Position numbers and translations under genes: made by a program
From: an uncultured Geobacteraceae bacterium
GTDB taxonomy: Bacteria; Desulfobacterota; Desulfuromonadia; Geobacterales; Pseudopelobacteraceae
Direction of reading: 5' to 3'
Assembly: GCA_903901875.1 (NCBI GenBank)
Contig: CAIUSO010000127.1
Coordinates: forward strand, 1-64,000
DNA length: 64,000 nt
Notes under the pieces: generated by a model
What the model was told of the DNA's origin: nothing
The model's database searches: none
Seen by the model: the letters and a program-made list of their open reading frames with translations, nothing else
Shown: piece after piece, positions 20,585 through 27,761 of the stretch
Numbering within the stretch: the stretch's first letter is position 1
Layout: each line of letters starts with the position of its first letter

Positions 20585-21826
20585 CTAAAACCGTGGTCCC
20601 ATGGGAGAGCCACCGCTCTTTTTCTTACTCTCCCCCCCCATCTGCTCGATGATGACGTCGGCCCCTTCCGTAAGCCCTCCCCCGGTGAGCTCCATACTGG
20701 TACCATTGGCAATCCCGGTTGACACCTCTGCCGGAACCGGCGTACCCTCCTTGAGCAGATAGACCTGGAGCATCTTTTCCTTCACCTTTCGGGAAACCCG
20801 CTCTCCCCCCTTGGCCGGTCCCATGGCTCCCCCCTTCACGGCATCAACCTTTGGCTTCCCTTTTGCCTCATCCCCTTTTCCCTTTGGCTTGAAACGGAGG
20901 GCGGCAAGGGGGAGTTTCAACACATCATCCCGTTTTGCCACCTCAACCGAAACGTTGGCCGTCATCCCCGGCATCAGCTTTAAATCGCTGTTGTCCACGG
21001 TAACAACCACGGCATAGGTCACCACATTCTGATTAATCACCGGAGCGGTGCGGATCTGGACAACCTTCCCCCGAAAGGTCGATTCGGGATAGGAATCAAC
21101 GGTAAAATTCGCCACCTGCCCAAGCTTCACCCGGCTGATGTCCGCCTCATCAACGCTTACCTCAATCTGCATTTTGGTCAAATCCTGGGCGATGGTAAAC
21201 AGAGTCGGAGTCTGAAACGAAGCGGCCACCGTCTGCCCCACGTCGATGGCACGGGAGATAATCACTCCATCAACCGGAGAACGAATGGTTGAGTAGCGCA
21301 GATTGGTTTTCGACTGTAACAATGCCCCCCGTGACTGGGCCACGCCCCCCTCTTCGGCTTTTACCGCCGCCTGTGCGGTCTGTAGTGCGCTCTCGGCAGT
21401 ATCAAAATCTCCCTGGGAAATAATGCCGTCCGCCAACAGCTTCCGGTTCCGCTGGAAGGCACGTTCCGCGTCCTTGAGGGCAACCGTGGCTTTTTGAAGG
21501 TTCGCCTCGGCAACACGGAAATTCCCTTCGGCCTGTGCCACGGACGCATTGAAAAGAGACGGATCAATCTCGGCAATGGGCTGGCCTTTTTTTACCCGTG
21601 AATTGTAATCAACATACAGTTTTTGAATGGTGCCGGACACCTGGGTACCAACTTGAACCGTAATAACCGCAGAAAGGTTACCGGTGGCTGCCACCGTTGA
21701 AACAATGGGGCCCCGCTCGATTTTGGCGGTTCGATAGGTAATTTCCGGTCCATGGCTGTAGAAAAAATACCCGCCGATGGCGGCAGACAGTATCAGGATG
21801 GAAGAGATAATAATCGCTTTTTTCAT
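20585..21826 (-). CDS. Periplasmic adaptor (MacA-like, HlyD/RND membrane-fusion family)
   Basis: 413 residues. The N-terminal helix (AIIISSILILSAAIGGYFFY) anchors it in the inner membrane. A lipoyl-like half motif (GTQVSGTIQKLYVDYNSRVKKGQPIAEIDP) and a coiled-coil hairpin (about 95-165, rich in AQAEGNFRVAEA-type heptads) follow, then beta-barrel domains. The C-terminal part is unusually basic and glycine-rich (KPKGKGDEAKGKPK, ending SKKKSGGSPMGPRF). It is the first gene of the transporter operon and lies 141 bp after the leader ORF. MacA links the permease to an outer-membrane channel. Confidence 0.92.
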   Translation of the reverse strand: MKKAIIISSILILSAAIGGYFFYSHGPEITYRTAKIERGPIVSTVAATGNLSAVITVQVGTQVSGTIQKLYVDYNSRVKKGQPIAEIDPSLFNASVAQAEGNFRVAEANLQKATVALKDAERAFQRNRKLLADGIISQGDFDTAESALQTAQAAVKAEEGGVAQSRGALLQSKTNLRYSTIRSPVDGVIISRAIDVGQTVAASFQTPTLFTIAQDLTKMQIEVSVDEADISRVKLGQVANFTVDSYPESTFRGKVVQIRTAPVINQNVVTYAVVVTVDNSDLKLMPGMTANVSVEVAKRDDVLKLPLAALRFKPKGKGDEAKGKPKVDAVKGGAMGPAKGGERVSRKVKEKMLQVYLLKEGTPVPAEVSTGIANGTSMELTGGGLTEGADVIIEQMGGESKKKSGGSPMGPRF

Positions 21827-21899: not shown

Positions 21900-21933
21900 A
21901 AAAAAAAGCTCCCCTGCCTATGGCAAGGGAGCT
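21900..21933 (-). terminator. Strong rho-independent terminator between leader ORF and efflux operon
   Basis: On the minus strand AGCTCCCTTGCC, loop ATA and GGCAGGGGAGCT form a stem with one mismatch, followed by eight T residues. It lies in the leader between the 20-codon ORF and the adaptor gene, so transcripts from the promoter at 22079-22106 must read through it. Confidence 0.8.
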
Positions 21934-21943
21934 TTTGGGGAAC

Positions 21944-21967
21944 GCCCGCTGCCGTGCGGCGGCGGGC
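21944..21967 (-). other. GC-rich hairpin directly after the leader ORF stop codon
   Basis: GCCCGC-T-GCC/GGC-G-GCGGGC forms a stem with one mismatch and a GTGC loop. It abuts the TAG of the 20-codon ORF and lies about 10 bp before the terminator stem. It could compete with ribosomes or protect the RNA end. Confidence 0.6.
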
Positions 21968-22029
21968 TAAAGAGTGCAACCTTCTTTACAGTGGGAAACC
22001 GGACGAATTCTGAATCTTGCAGTCCACAT
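21967..22029 (-). CDS. Candidate 20-residue leader peptide
   Basis: ATG at 22029 with AGGAG nine bases upstream, reading MWTARFRIRPVSHCKEGCTL then TAG. It is too short for the ORF track. The peptide is basic (four Arg/Lys and His) and has two cysteines (HCKEGC). It is preceded by a good promoter and followed by a hairpin and a terminator ahead of the MacA-like gene. This fits either a leader peptide for attenuation of the efflux operon or an independent small peptide gene. I recognise no family. Confidence 0.55.
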   Translation of the reverse strand: MWTARFRIRPVSHCKEGCTL

Positions 22030-22078
22030 TGGCAGGGTCTCCTTTCACGCTTATTTAATTCCTAACAGGATGCTTTTT

Positions 22079-22106
22079 ATCTTAATACAATTCTGTTGGT
22101 TGTCAA
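22079..22106 (-). promoter_or_regulatory. Sigma70 promoter upstream of the leader ORF
   Basis: On the minus strand a consensus -35 TTGACA (22101-22106) and -10 TAAGAT (22079-22084) lie 16 bp apart. Transcription would start about 43 nt upstream of the 20-codon ORF. Confidence 0.65.
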
Positions 22107-22321: not shown

Positions 22322-24637
22322 ATGCCGCACGCACAGATTGAAATTCCGTCAAAGCTCCCTCTTTACAGCCAGAAAGAGACCGTTGTGTTCCCGTATATGC
22401 TGTTCCCCCTCTACGTGCCCGAAAAGGATGCCGTCATTTTTCGTGAGGTGGACCGCTATGAAAAATATGTGGTACTGGTCTTTGAACGTCCCGATGATCC
22501 TACCGGTGAACTACCGGCAGGAAGGTGCGATATCGGTACCCTCTGCAAGGTCACCCACATAAAGAAAATGGAAGACGGGCGCCTCAAGGTTTCCCTTGAA
22601 GGAATTTCACGGATTCGCATTCTGGACACGGAACCGGTCGGAACCTCTACCGTTGCCCAGTGTGAACTGGTCCGCGAGTTTTTCGAGAAAAATCTGGTTT
22701 CGGAAGCATTGGTTCAGAGCCTCAACGCCCTGCTTAAAATTGCCCTTTCCCACGGTAAACCGCTCCCCGATGACGTCATGAAGATGATTGACTACATCGA
22801 CAATCCTGCCCGGCTTTCCGATCTGGTGGCCCTGTATGTGAATCTCCCCCCGACCGAATTGCAGGAATTGCTGGAAACAATTGACCCCCTCGAACGTCTT
22901 AAGAAAGTCTACGTCCATCTCACCAATGAAGTCCAACGGATGCAGATCAAGAGCGAAGTGGCGGGGGAAGTTACCAAGCGGGTAGGGAAAAATCAGAAGG
23001 AATATATTCTTCGGGAGCAGATGAAGCATATCCAGGAAGAGCTGGGAGAAGAGGACCCCCGTTCCGCCGATATAAATGAACTGCGCCGGAAGATTGAAGA
23101 GGCCGGGCTGCCGGAAGAGATCAAAAAAATCGCCGACAAAGAGCTGAAACGTCTGGAGAGGATCAATCAGGCATCTCCCGAATATACCGTTGCCCGCACC
23201 TATCTGGACTATCTGGCCGGTATGCCCTGGAATGTCAGCTCGACCGACACACTGGACATGGTCCGGGCCGAGGAGATCCTCAACGAAGATCATTATAACC
23301 TGAAAAAAGTCAAAGAACGGATTCTCGAATTTCTGGCGGTCCGGTCGCTGAAGGAAGATATGAAAGGGCCGGTTCTCTGCTTTGTCGGTCCTCCCGGCGT
23401 GGGAAAAACCTCACTCGGCAAGTCAATAGCCCGCTCCATGGGGCGCAAATTTGTCCGAATTTCACTGGGAGGTGTCAGGGATGAAGCCGAGATTCGCGGC
23501 CATCGCCGCACCTATATCGGAGCTCTGCCGGGACGTATTATCAAGGAGCTGTTCCGCTGCGGCGTCAACAATCCCGTGTTTATGCTGGATGAGATTGATA
23601 AAATGGGCAATGACTTCCGGGGCGATCCGGCAAGTGCTCTGCTGGAAGTCCTCGATCCTGAACAGAATTTCAGTTTCAATGACCACTACCTGGATGTGCC
23701 TTTCGACCTCTCGAAGGTGATGTTCATCACCACCGCCAACCAGCTTGACCCGATTCCCGGACCGCTGAAAGATCGCATGGAGGTCATCCGACTCTCCGGC
23801 TACAGTTGTCAGGAAAAAATGCAGATTGCCAAAAACTTCATTATCCGCCGTGAGCTGGGGGAAAACGGCCTTGCCGACCGCGGACTGGTTTTCGACGATG
23901 ACGCCCTCGAAAAGGTAATCAGCGACCATACCCGGGAAGCCGGCGTCCGTGGTCTGCAACGGACCATTGGCTCCCTCTGCCGCAAGGTCGCCAAGGAGAT
24001 TACCCAGCACAAGACTTTTCGCGGCAGGATTACTGCCGAAGGGGTCACCGAGCTGCTGGGACCAAAAAAGTTCCACAATGAAGTGGCGTCAGAGAATGAC
24101 CGGATAGGGGTCGTAACCGGCCTGGCCTGGACGGAAACCGGGGGGGACATCCTTTTTATCGAGGCGACCTCCATGCCGGGCAAGGCAGAGCTCATTCTCA
24201 CCGGTTCACTGGGAGACGTCATGAAGGAGTCGGCCCGGGCCGCTCTCTCCTATATCGAGGCCCACGCCACCGACCTGGGCATTGAGCCTTCGTCCTTTGA
24301 AAACCGAACCATTCACATCCATGTTCCCTCCGGGGCCATCCCCAAAGACGGGCCTTCGGCCGGAGTGACCATGGTCACCGCACTGGTGTCGCTGTTGACC
24401 GGTAAGCCGGCGCGGCGGAATGTGGCCATGACCGGCGAAATTACCCTCACCGGCCGGGTCCTGGCCATCGGTGGCCTGAAGGAGAAGGTGCTGGCGGCCC
24501 ACCGGGCGGGAGTCAGCACCGTCATCGCCCCTGAGCGCAACCGAGACGACCTGGAAGATATTCCGGAAAATGTCCGCAAAGAGCTGCAATTCATCTTTGT
24601 CAATGACGTGTCAGATGCCATGGCCGCCACACTTTAG
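22322..24637 (+). CDS. lon: ATP-dependent protease La (Lon)
   Basis: 771 residues, close to the typical 780. It degrades damaged and regulatory proteins in the cytoplasm. The N-terminal substrate-binding domain begins LPLYSQKETVVFPYMLFPLYV. The AAA+ module has Walker A GPPGVGKTSLGKS and Walker B VFMLDEIDK. The proteolytic domain has the catalytic serine in KDGPSAGVT and the lysine in LKEKVLAAHRAG. AAAGGA is about a dozen bases before the ATG. It leads a tight plus-strand cluster. A second lon elsewhere is possible, since related genomes often have several. Confidence 0.96.
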   Translation: MPHAQIEIPSKLPLYSQKETVVFPYMLFPLYVPEKDAVIFREVDRYEKYVVLVFERPDDPTGELPAGRCDIGTLCKVTHIKKMEDGRLKVSLEGISRIRILDTEPVGTSTVAQCELVREFFEKNLVSEALVQSLNALLKIALSHGKPLPDDVMKMIDYIDNPARLSDLVALYVNLPPTELQELLETIDPLERLKKVYVHLTNEVQRMQIKSEVAGEVTKRVGKNQKEYILREQMKHIQEELGEEDPRSADINELRRKIEEAGLPEEIKKIADKELKRLERINQASPEYTVARTYLDYLAGMPWNVSSTDTLDMVRAEEILNEDHYNLKKVKERILEFLAVRSLKEDMKGPVLCFVGPPGVGKTSLGKSIARSMGRKFVRISLGGVRDEAEIRGHRRTYIGALPGRIIKELFRCGVNNPVFMLDEIDKMGNDFRGDPASALLEVLDPEQNFSFNDHYLDVPFDLSKVMFITTANQLDPIPGPLKDRMEVIRLSGYSCQEKMQIAKNFIIRRELGENGLADRGLVFDDDALEKVISDHTREAGVRGLQRTIGSLCRKVAKEITQHKTFRGRITAEGVTELLGPKKFHNEVASENDRIGVVTGLAWTETGGDILFIEATSMPGKAELILTGSLGDVMKESARAALSYIEAHATDLGIEPSSFENRTIHIHVPSGAIPKDGPSAGVTMVTALVSLLTGKPARRNVAMTGEITLTGRVLAIGGLKEKVLAAHRAGVSTVIAPERNRDDLEDIPENVRKELQFIFVNDVSDAMAATL

Positions 24638-24640
24638 CCG

Positions 24641-25414
24641 ATGAATTCAGCCGCCATTGACAGGATACTCCTGCAGTTTTTCCATGAACTGCAAAGCTAT
24701 TTCGCCCTGGCTGGACGTATGGTGATCCGCATATTCCAGCGCCCCTTCTATTATCGCGAGTTTACCATCCAGTTTGATAAACTGGGCTTTGCCTCTCTGT
24801 TCATCTGCACACTGACCGGTCTTTTTTCCGGCATGGTCATGGCGTTGCAATCGCTGATCCAGCTGAAACCATTTGCAGCAACCAGCTATGTGGGGGGCAT
24901 GGTGGCGGTAACCATGATCAAGGAACTGGGACCGGTGCTGGCATCCCTCATGGTTGCCGGTCGGGTCGGATCGGCTATTACCGCCGAACTGGGCACCATG
25001 GTGGTGACGGAACAGGTTGACGCCATGCGGGTTGAAGGGACCGATATCATTAAACGGCTGGCGGTCCCGCGGTTGAAGGCAATGCTTGTGGCACTACCGC
25101 TCTTGACCATTGTGACCGACATGATCTCCATTGTGGGGGGCTACATCATGTCCGCCGGTTACGATATCAATCCGATCATGTACATCAGTGCTCTCCCCCA
25201 GTTTATGGTCTTTCAGGATCTGATCGAGGGGGTCGCCAAACCGGCCGTATTTGGTGCCATTATTGCCATCACCGGCTGTTATGTGGGACTTGGCACCAAG
25301 GGGGGGGCAGAAGGTGTCGGTGCCGCCGCCAAAAAAGCGGTGGTCCTCTCATCGGTGCTTATTCTGATGGCAGATTTTTTTATTGCCAAAATATTTGTCG
25401 TATTCAGAGGATAA
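24641..25414 (+). CDS. mlaE: MlaE-type ABC permease of a lipid-transport system
   Basis: 257 residues. The fold has multiple transmembrane helices (GFASLFICTLTGLFSGMVMAL, LLTIVTDMISIVGGYIMSAG, AVVLSSVLILMADFFIAKIFVVF) and the family motifs GPVLASLMVAGRVGSAITAELGTM and EQVDAMRVEGTD. MlaE works with MlaF and MlaD to move phospholipids across the periplasm and so keep outer-membrane asymmetry. It starts 3 bp after the lon stop and is separated from mlaF by an EVE-domain gene. MlaB and MlaC are not visible here. Confidence 0.92.
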   Translation: MNSAAIDRILLQFFHELQSYFALAGRMVIRIFQRPFYYREFTIQFDKLGFASLFICTLTGLFSGMVMALQSLIQLKPFAATSYVGGMVAVTMIKELGPVLASLMVAGRVGSAITAELGTMVVTEQVDAMRVEGTDIIKRLAVPRLKAMLVALPLLTIVTDMISIVGGYIMSAGYDINPIMYISALPQFMVFQDLIEGVAKPAVFGAIIAITGCYVGLGTKGGAEGVGAAAKKAVVLSSVLILMADFFIAKIFVVFRG

Positions 25415-25415
25415 C

Positions 25416-25898
25416 ATGGCGTACTGGCTGTTCAAAACCGAACCGGGCTGTTTCTCCTTCGATGATTTGAAAAACCGTCCTGACATGACCGAACCGTGGG
25501 ATGGGGTCCGCAATTTTCAGGCGCGGAATTTCCTGCGGGATACGGTGGCAGTTGGTGATCTGGTCCTGTTTTACCACAGCAACATCGCCGAGCCGGCCGT
25601 GGTCGGAGTGGCGGAAATCGTGCGTGCCGGCTATCCGGACAGCACCGCGCGGGATCCCCAGGGGGAGCATTTTGACCCGAAGGCCTCTGCCGCCAAGCCG
25701 ATCTGGTACATGGTTGATGTGCGCTATCGGGTGCCGTTTCCCCGGCCGGTGACCCTTGGCCAGATCAAGAGTATCCCGCTACTGGCAGACATGCCCCTGG
25801 TAAAGCGGAGCCGCCTCTCCATTCAGCCGGTCAGCGACCTTGAGTGGCAGGTTATCCTCACCACAGGAAGTCTGACCGAAGGGATCACCGCATCATGA
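25416..25898 (+). CDS. EVE-domain protein (thymocyte nuclear protein 1-like)
   Basis: 160 residues from the ATG at 25416, one base after the mlaE stop and preceded by AGAGG; the track start lies inside mlaE. MAYWLFKTEPGCFSFDDL, WDGVRNFQARNFLRD and GDLVLFYHSN are the hallmarks of the EVE fold, a PUA-related domain that binds modified bases in DNA or RNA. It overlaps the mlaF ATG by 4 bp (ATGA). Its place inside the Mla genes is odd, as no link to lipid transport is known. It may be a passenger. Confidence 0.9.
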   Translation: MAYWLFKTEPGCFSFDDLKNRPDMTEPWDGVRNFQARNFLRDTVAVGDLVLFYHSNIAEPAVVGVAEIVRAGYPDSTARDPQGEHFDPKASAAKPIWYMVDVRYRVPFPRPVTLGQIKSIPLLADMPLVKRSRLSIQPVSDLEWQVILTTGSLTEGITAS

Positions 25899-26647
25899 TG
25901 TCCCATAACTCGCTCCGGATGGAAAAATTATGCTACTCCATCGGTGGCCGCACTATTCTGAAAGACTTTGATTTCCATCTTGAACGGGGCGTAAACCGGA
26001 CCATTTTAGGGGTGAGCGGTGCAGGTAAAACCACCATCCTCAAGCTGCTGCTCGGCCTTCTGGAACCTGATTCCGGTTCTGTGTACATCGGTAATCTCTG
26101 TATCACCGGGCTCCCCGAGTCCCGATTCAGAGAACAGCGAAAACGGATCGCCATCGTATTTCAGGGGGGAGCACTCTTTGATTCCATGTCGGTGGGCGAA
26201 AACGTCGGCTACCGGCTTTTTGAAGAGGGGGTTCTCTCCCACGCGGAGATATCCCGAATCGTTCGGGAGAAACTCAGCTTTGTGGGGGTGGAGGCGGCCC
26301 TGAATCTCTACCCCGCCGAGCTTTCCGGTGGTATGAAAAAACGGGTCGCCATCGCCCGCGCACTGGCCGCGGACCCGGATTATATCTTCTTTGACGAGCC
26401 GACCACCGGACTGGACCCGATCGGCGTGTACAATATCTGCAACCTGATGCAGCGGCTGCAGGCCGAAGGAAAGACCACCCTGATGGTTACCCATGATCTG
26501 GCCACTGCCTTTGCCACCTCCCAGCGCTTCACGTTTCTCCATAAGGCACAGATGCTTTTCGAGGGGAGCGAAGCAGATATGAAGAGAAGTACCATTCCGG
26601 AAGTGCAGGAATTTCTGGAACCAACCGACCGGTCGCTCTTTATTTGA
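25895..26647 (+). CDS. mlaF: MlaF-type ABC ATPase of a lipid-transport system
   Basis: About 250 residues from the ATG at 25895, with GAAGGG ten bases upstream. The track start at 25844 runs through the EVE gene. Walker A GVSGAGKTT, signature LSGGMKKRVAIARAL, Walker B YIFFDEPTTGLDP and MVTHD identify an ABC ATPase; SGGM is typical of the MlaF/Mkl group. It powers the MlaE permease. It is linked by stop/start overlap to the EVE gene and lies 31 bp ahead of mlaD. Confidence 0.92.
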   Translation: MMSHNSLRMEKLCYSIGGRTILKDFDFHLERGVNRTILGVSGAGKTTILKLLLGLLEPDSGSVYIGNLCITGLPESRFREQRKRIAIVFQGGALFDSMSVGENVGYRLFEEGVLSHAEISRIVREKLSFVGVEAALNLYPAELSGGMKKRVAIARALAADPDYIFFDEPTTGLDPIGVYNICNLMQRLQAEGKTTLMVTHDLATAFATSQRFTFLHKAQMLFEGSEADMKRSTIPEVQEFLEPTDRSLFI

Positions 26648-26678
26648 CGACCATACAACGCATAACAGGTGGACTCAT

Positions 26679-27761
26679 ATGAATCGAAGTAATCAAATCG
26701 GCTGGGCCCAGGTACGGGGAGGCGTGTTTATCCTTCTGGCACTGCTCTTTTTTGCCGGTGGAGTGCTCTTAATGGGGCAGAAAACCAAGATGTTTGTCTC
26801 CAAAGGCTCCATGAGTGTTGTCATGAGCGACGTGGTCGGTCTGAAGGTGGGCGCACCGGTATGGCTTGCCGGGGTTGATGTGGGCTTGGTCAACGACATC
26901 TACTTCGCACATCCGAAAACCAGCAACGAGGTCACCATTGATATTCAGGTTGATTCCGATGCCATGAAAAAAATTGGTACCGACTCGAAGATAACCATTA
27001 AAACCAGGGGGCTCATGGGTGAGAAATACGTCGATATTCTCCCCTCACGGTTCTACTCGACCACCCCTCCGCTCCAGTTGCAGGGATCACCGACAGCCAA
27101 GCTGGATGACGTCATCCAGAAGGCCGGGGACTCATTCGACAGAGTAAATTCCATTATTGACAATATCCAGCAGGGAAAAGGTACCCTCGGCAAGCTCAAT
27201 AAGGATGACAGCCTCTACCGCACTATTTCCCAGCTTACCACGGAAATGAAGGATCTGATTGTAACCATCAACCGGGGAAGCGGAACCCTTGGCAAGCTGA
27301 ACCGGGATCCTGAACCCTATAACAAGCTGATCAGTATCCTCAGCAGGGCCGACCAGACCCTGCAGGATATGCAAGATGCCGACGGCACCCTGAACCGCCT
27401 GATCTATGACAACTCCCTCTTCACAAAATTAACCGCACTGACCGACAAGAGCACCCAGGCCGCCGACGATGTGCGGGACCTGAACCGGCGCATCATCGCA
27501 AAGGACGGTACCATCGGTCTGCTCCTCAATGATCGGGAGTTTTACGACAAGGGGATGTCCATGCTCACCAAGGCAGAGCGTTCCATCAGCGACATTGAGA
27601 AGCTGACCTCCCAGTTAAAGGGAGGAGAGGGAACCGCCGGCAAGCTGGTTACCGATGGCGCCTTGTACGAAAAAATGAACCAGGTGGTCGAGAACATGGA
27701 CGCCCTGCTCAAGGATGTCAAAAAAGATCCCAAAAAATACTTTAAATTCTCTGTTTTCTAG
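26679..27761 (+). CDS. mlaD: MlaD-type MCE-domain protein
   Basis: 360 residues. One N-terminal helix (GVFILLALLFFAGGVLLMG) anchors it in the inner membrane, and an MCE domain (about 35-120) begins SVVMSDVVGLKVGAPVWLAGVDVG, the usual MlaD pattern. The long C-terminal part (120-355) is helical with a recurring GTLGKLN-type motif, perhaps a hydrophobic tunnel or coiled stalk. It completes a permease, ATPase and MCE set for lipid transport. AGGTGG precedes the ATG. Confidence 0.9.
   Translation: MNRSNQIGWAQVRGGVFILLALLFFAGGVLLMGQKTKMFVSKGSMSVVMSDVVGLKVGAPVWLAGVDVGLVNDIYFAHPKTSNEVTIDIQVDSDAMKKIGTDSKITIKTRGLMGEKYVDILPSRFYSTTPPLQLQGSPTAKLDDVIQKAGDSFDRVNSIIDNIQQGKGTLGKLNKDDSLYRTISQLTTEMKDLIVTINRGSGTLGKLNRDPEPYNKLISILSRADQTLQDMQDADGTLNRLIYDNSLFTKLTALTDKSTQAADDVRDLNRRIIAKDGTIGLLLNDREFYDKGMSMLTKAERSISDIEKLTSQLKGGEGTAGKLVTDGALYEKMNQVVENMDALLKDVKKDPKKYFKFSVF

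Follow-up and report, generated by a model that had tools for sequence, protein, structure and literature searches.

A predicted stand-alone micro-gene of the Geobacterales encodes a conserved CKEGC peptide at a fixed distance from a downstream RNA structure

Organisation of the locus

Within the window (the whole 64,000-nucleotide stretch of DNA that was analysed), a compact series of expression signals is located on the minus strand between positions 22106 and 21897. The promoter of the micro-gene (22106-22079) combines a TTGACA box at 22106-22101 with a TAAGAT box at 22084-22079 across a 16-nt spacer, a 10/12 match to the sigma-70 consensus. A Shine-Dalgarno sequence AAGGAG (22044-22039, kept in the alignment) precedes a 20-codon ORF, MWTARFRIRPVSHCKEGCTL (22029-21967), which runs from ATG at 22029-22027 to TAG at 21969-21967. 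The last Cys codon of this ORF occupies 21978-21976, and the 8-nt spacer ACTCTTTA (21975-21968) separates it from a GC hairpin, GCCCGCCGCCGCACGGCAGCGGGC (21967-21944, arms GCCCGC and GCGGGC), which begins with the final base of the stop codon. An intrinsic terminator (21936-21897) closes the unit, with a 15-pair stem at 21936-21904 followed by T residues. The preliminary description had proposed this promoter, an AGGAG, the 20-codon ORF, a hairpin touching its stop and the terminator, and each is confirmed with correct coordinates. As judged from its sequence, the minus strand from 22106 to 21897 is a complete stand-alone gene, with promoter, AAGGAG, ORF, GC hairpin and intrinsic terminator. 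The neighbouring gene, outside this unit and on the same strand, encodes a macA-like adaptor of the HlyD family (21826-20585, start at 21826; Pfam HlyD_D23, 6.6e-25).

The 178-nt RNA of the window element folds better than its dinucleotide shuffles (z -3.1). Among loci lacking the pseudoknot described below, a promoter scoring at least 9/12 precedes the ORF by no more than 120 nt in 93 of 109 cases, compared to 12.8 in shuffles, and a terminator-like stem follows in 91 of 111, compared to 0.7 expected from shuffles.

Other features of the surroundings were also observed. The genus alignment contains an inverted repeat, TCCTGTTAGGA (22070-22060 on the minus strand), in the 5' UTR between the -10 box and the Shine-Dalgarno sequence; it is found genus-wide and is a possible operator or 5' hairpin. 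The divergent neighbour is a lon-type protease gene, assigned from sequence (22322-24637, plus strand), and the pairing of lon with the peptide gene is retained in most loci of the genus. Beyond lon, the ORF list points to Mla-type lipid transporter-like genes for a permease, an ATPase and an MCE protein (24641-27761, plus strand).

Distribution across genomes

A DNA similarity search with the window element returned a match in 35 of 39 relatives. Shine-Dalgarno sequence, ORF, hairpin and terminator are common to all of the aligned loci, as is the promoter within the genus. The peptide itself was searched for using a degenerate pattern for PV-x-[HR]-CKEGC, with the reversed pattern as control. 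The pattern is present in 131/141 genomes of the order Geobacterales, covering 29/29 genera and 99/103 good genomes, while the reversed pattern gave 0 matches; named records of the order include Geobacter, Geomonas, Trichlorobacter, Geotalea, Oryzomonas and Pelobacter. The reading frame is thus kept order-wide, the outcome of the conservation check that the preliminary description had proposed.

Elsewhere in the phylum the pattern was found in none of 289 genomes (from a sample of 297, in which the only positives were the 8 from Geobacterales). The peptide does occur in 49 of 193 Omnitrophota genomes by pattern search, and in a minority of Firmicutes-type genomes: 8/201 (each with 1-3 copies) in the class to which a Selenomonadales MAG belongs, 4/60 in the order of a Thermoanaerobacteraceae MAG and 2/44 in the phylum of Theseobacter. 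Pattern matches L086, L126 and L142 were excluded as chance. In a profile search, true members score 42-47 bits compared to noise of ~18 bits or less, with no intermediates. Gradual divergence outside the positive clades was rejected as an explanation, as profile scores did not rise above noise level in three other genomes of the class. A phage or plasmid element was likewise rejected, with 0 matches in viral contigs and a single plasmid match judged to be chance.

Four near-complete Geobacterales genomes (G008, G092, G120 and G127) yield no peptide by pattern or profile, and represent apparent losses or assembly gaps. Several others (G029, G036, G038, G054-G056 and similar) carry two diverged copies per genome, one of FRIRPVS type and one of YMLRPVT type, in differing contexts. 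A Wolfebacteria (Patescibacteria) record, L146, encodes the peptide MWTNRTYALRPVTRCKEGC with a Geobacter-like N-terminus, which could reflect lateral transfer or a binning error.

The peptide is under protein-level selection

The conserved C-terminus of the peptide reads R-P-V-[STA]-[HR]-C-K-E-G-C, with R9, P10, V11, C14, K15, E16, G17 and C18 invariant in the alignment. The remark in the preliminary description on an Arg-rich stretch and two cysteines was therefore apt, R9 and C14/C18 being among these residues. The first 4-8 residues are free, and conservation extends to the last Cys. The codon directly before the searched pattern specifies Arg in 116/119 loci and draws on each of the six Arg codons, while the Pro, Val and Gly positions each use all four of their codons. 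Among the loci retrieved solely by DNA similarity, 29/49/161 changes fall at codon positions 1/2/3, and codons 9-11 and 14-18 show zero non-synonymous changes; the invariance of CKEGC is presupposed by pattern retrieval, but not by retrieval at the DNA level. Because R-P-V-[STA]-[HR]-CKEGC stays fixed although every Arg, Pro, Val and Gly codon occurs, the predicted peptide of ~16-22 residues is under strong protein-level selection. Conservation of the RNA alone is excluded by this synonymous saturation.

No significant match to the peptide was found in Pfam, NCBIfam, PHROGs or PDB sequences, short queries limiting the sensitivity of these searches, and in Rfam 15 neither the window element nor any of six pseudoknot loci came close to a family's gathering score. 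A known riboswitch or sRNA was rejected on the latter ground. The view that no described family matches the peptide hence holds for Pfam, NCBIfam, PHROGs, PDB and Rfam. In the literature, the motif CKEGC appeared only in unrelated papers and no description of the gene was found; most subscription journals fell outside this search, and an earlier description is possible.

An RNA structure lies at a fixed distance from the last Cys codon

Two distinct fold types, either a hairpin or a pseudoknot, occupy one and the same site downstream of the conserved codons. In Geobacterales the structure is a GC hairpin, for which 96 distinct sequences display compensatory pair changes, for example at pair 5 (G-C to A-U) and at pairs 4 and 6 (C-G to U-A). 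An H-type pseudoknot with the consensus GUC-CY-GGGCA-N-GAC-GUUAAAC-UGCCC takes its place in Omnitrophota, Negativicutes-type and other genomes. Across its 32 distinct sequences 94.5% of cells pair and 4 pairs show double changes. The covariation score of 0.187 compares to 0.112 in shuffles, with 0/500 shuffles reaching 0.187. Slid controls score at most 0.099, a comparison that flatters the pseudoknot because the structure was derived from those same sequences. The double changes (GUC/GAC to CUC/GAG, and GGGCA to AGGUA with UACCU) are the firmer evidence. Large natural insertions occur within the pseudoknot element at two loci (L143 near 142 and L075 near 5454, in oriented-strand coordinates), with the pairing partners kept on both sides.

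It was found that the structure starts 8 nt past the last Cys codon in 74/74 pseudoknot loci, with 6-11 nt allowed. The spacing is also 8 in 89 of 112 other loci and 7 in 9 more, some of the remainder representing the same stem extended outward. The stop codon, by comparison, follows the last Cys after 0, 2, 6, 7, 8 or more codons, and in two loci with a stop directly after Cys (L287 and L288) the pseudoknot still starts at 8 nt. Read from these sequences, the spacing is anchored on the last Cys codon and not on the stop codon.

A possible ribosome pause at the last Cys codon

We propose that, at the last Cys codon, the ribosome may be paused by the nascent CXXXC peptide and the RNA structure acting together, a reading to which we assign a probability of about 0.45. 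An independently transcribed micro-gene would encode the conserved peptide, and, because it is the Cys codon and not the stop that fixes the spacing, the structure would meet the leading edge of the ribosome once the nascent chain ends in ...HCKEGC. General ribosome dimensions place the structure at the mRNA entrance when ...HCKEGC is in the P site. Nascent chain and RNA structure could then together pause or arrest the ribosome at that point. A free N-terminus with conservation up to the last Cys is as expected for a nascent-chain element. The conserved core contains a single Pro, in RPV, and RPV.HCKEGC holds no known arrest motif such as RAGP or RAPP, nor any proline-rich or RAPP motif near the C-terminus. 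Against the pause model, the fixed spacing could stem in part from common descent.

In Omnitrophota the ORF lies within operons, with Rrf2 at most 135 nt downstream in 28 pseudoknot loci and with genes for Hcp (prismane), desulfoferrodoxin and peroxiredoxin as neighbours. More speculatively, through the CXXXC thiol pair either the pause or the released peptide might respond to a thiol-reactive cue (redox, NO or metal), in keeping with the Rrf2, hybrid-cluster-protein, desulfoferrodoxin and peroxiredoxin genes of these operons. The grounds for this thiol-sensing step are the two cysteines and the neighbours in a single phylum. A GATAC-n5/6-GTATC palindrome is found upstream in 24/74 pseudoknot loci. 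At Omnitrophota loci such as L235, L231 and L240 this palindrome, in the form ATGATAC-n-GTATCAT, overlaps the promoter of the peptide-Rrf2 operon, and is a probable Rrf2 operator.

A credible alternative, which we hold to be possible but somewhat less likely than the pause, is that the peptide is released as a trans-acting micro-protein, binding metal or forming a disulfide through HCxxxC, or contacting a conserved partner, with the RNA structure only tuning termination or protecting a short mRNA. Strong peptide conservation, expression from its own promoter and terminator, and the thiol and metal-related neighbours in Omnitrophota would all be consistent with such a role. It does, however, leave unexplained both why the spacing is anchored on the Cys codon and why only the C-terminal half is conserved.

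We consider it improbable that the transcript acts as a dual-function or purely regulatory small RNA, in which the hairpin or pseudoknot works in trans and the ORF is secondary. Dual-function small RNAs are short structured transcripts with a small ORF and an intrinsic terminator, and the predicted stand-alone transcript of ~170 nt with its covarying structure resembles them. In contrast to that class, the present gene combines near-invariance across phyla with a fixed codon-to-structure distance; moreover, conservation is strongest in its peptide-coding part, where the variation is synonymous, while the fold type differs between clades.

Genomic context and the relation to macA

The preliminary description had offered two roles tied to the adjacent efflux genes, as well as that of a separate small peptide gene. 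In the window, a macA promoter-like element (21901-21873, minus strand; TTGTGG, 17 nt, extended -10 TG-T-TATAGT) lies between the terminator and the macA start at 21826, and the motif TGnTATnRT was counted by eye behind the terminator and ahead of macA in 22/22 loci of the genus. The adaptor-gene promoter that had been named as evidence against attenuation is thus represented by a promoter-like element. The next gene is macA in 48 loci, but in 26 hairpin-type loci the next gene (at least 100 aa, from a crude ORF caller) is convergent, and hairpin, spacing and terminator are all retained there. Elsewhere the next gene resembles a lytic transglycosylase (as judged by eye), is a convergent member of the PLD family, or is unrelated. 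Many loci have no co-directional downstream gene at all, and the Negativicutes-type copies are largely stand-alone.

These observations leave very little room for a leader-peptide attenuator of the macAB operon that is opened by ribosome stalling. The arrangement of peptide, hairpin and terminator ahead of macA would suit it, and arrest and leader peptides such as TnaC, SecM and ErmCL are likewise short ORFs with conserved C-terminal residues; these control a downstream gene in cis, however, whereas here the sequence is a different one and the downstream gene is often convergent. Attenuation is further opposed by the promoter-like element that every genus locus has after the terminator, and by the stand-alone peptide-structure unit of Negativicutes-type genomes. 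No better placed is a precursor of a modified peptide, or a cargo exported by MacAB. An exporter does adjoin the short Cys-containing peptide in the window genus and in certain further lineages, but in most lineages no macA lies next to the peptide, so that the transporter-cargo proposal finds no support. The peptide also has no leader region and is near-invariant across phyla, and the neighbourhoods show neither a constant maturation enzyme nor any other constant partner gene, on which ground a RiPP or cargo was rejected. A programmed ribosomal frameshift appears least probable of all: the layout of AARGARGG, 8-nt spacer and pseudoknot or hairpin resembles the purine-rich stretch, short spacer and downstream structure of dnaX-type signals, but slippery heptamer and conserved alternate-frame product are both absent, a stop codon is reached in the -1 frame at a median of 1 codon, the terminator is predicted to end Geobacterales transcripts, and the downstream Rrf2 genes are spread equally over the three frames (10/9/9), excluding fusion to Rrf2 or another extension.

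The separate small peptide gene, by comparison, is supported by order-wide conservation and by its own promoter and terminator. It is very probable, judging from these features, that the predicted micro-gene is real, selected, translated and independent of macA. As the Geobacterales and Negativicutes-type copies form a predicted stand-alone transcript, the output would therefore be in trans, or would be the pause itself.

Comparison with known Cys-pair nascent chains

The proposed pause at the last Cys codon has partial parallels in two systems, both upstream ORFs of a copper-sensing type that is marked by copper-dependent control of the gene downstream. CutF of Rhodobacter capsulatus combines a CxxxC nascent chain with a stem-loop just downstream of the ORF, and stalling-like translation has been proposed for it; this exported protein is far larger than the present peptide, carries a signal sequence and has a proline-rich C-terminus, and the stem-loop masks the start of the gene that follows (PMC9973294). 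The present gene shares the CxxxC pair and the stem-loop just past the ORF, but its peptide has 20 residues, is cytoplasmic by sequence, has no Pro-rich end and derives from a mostly stand-alone predicted transcript. CruR, an upstream ORF of Bordetella pertussis, contains a Cys pair for which a role as nascent-chain sensor has been proposed; CruR comprises 145 residues of DUF2946 with CXXC and a RAPP arrest motif, and exerts Rho-dependent downstream control (PMC9426467). Similarity to CruR lies in an upstream-type ORF with a Cys pair, here CKEGC. In place of a DUF2946-like protein of ~100 residues or more, the gene described here is a 20-residue ORF with no Pfam match. Since it differs in size, Pro motif and regulated downstream gene, it was not grouped with CutF and CruR. 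Both systems show that Cys-pair nascent chains, in CutF together with a downstream stem-loop, can operate in the manner proposed here.

The most far-reaching form of the pause model is a stand-alone programmed pause gene common to several phyla, in which a thiol-sensing CXXXC peptide and a structure at fixed distance control no downstream gene and the pause or its rescue product is the signal. We regard this full version as rather unlikely, and know of no precedent for a stand-alone arrest gene without a downstream target.

Implications

Nearly all genomes of the order, to which the metal-reducing Geobacter belongs, encode this ~20-residue peptide. With its near-invariance across phyla and no match in the libraries searched, it amounts to an overlooked core small gene. 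Furthermore, the invariant distance between its Cys codon and a swappable RNA structure connects nascent chain, ribosome and RNA fold in a concrete way that can be tested. Should the pause model prove correct, the gene would represent an arrest element with no downstream gene to serve.
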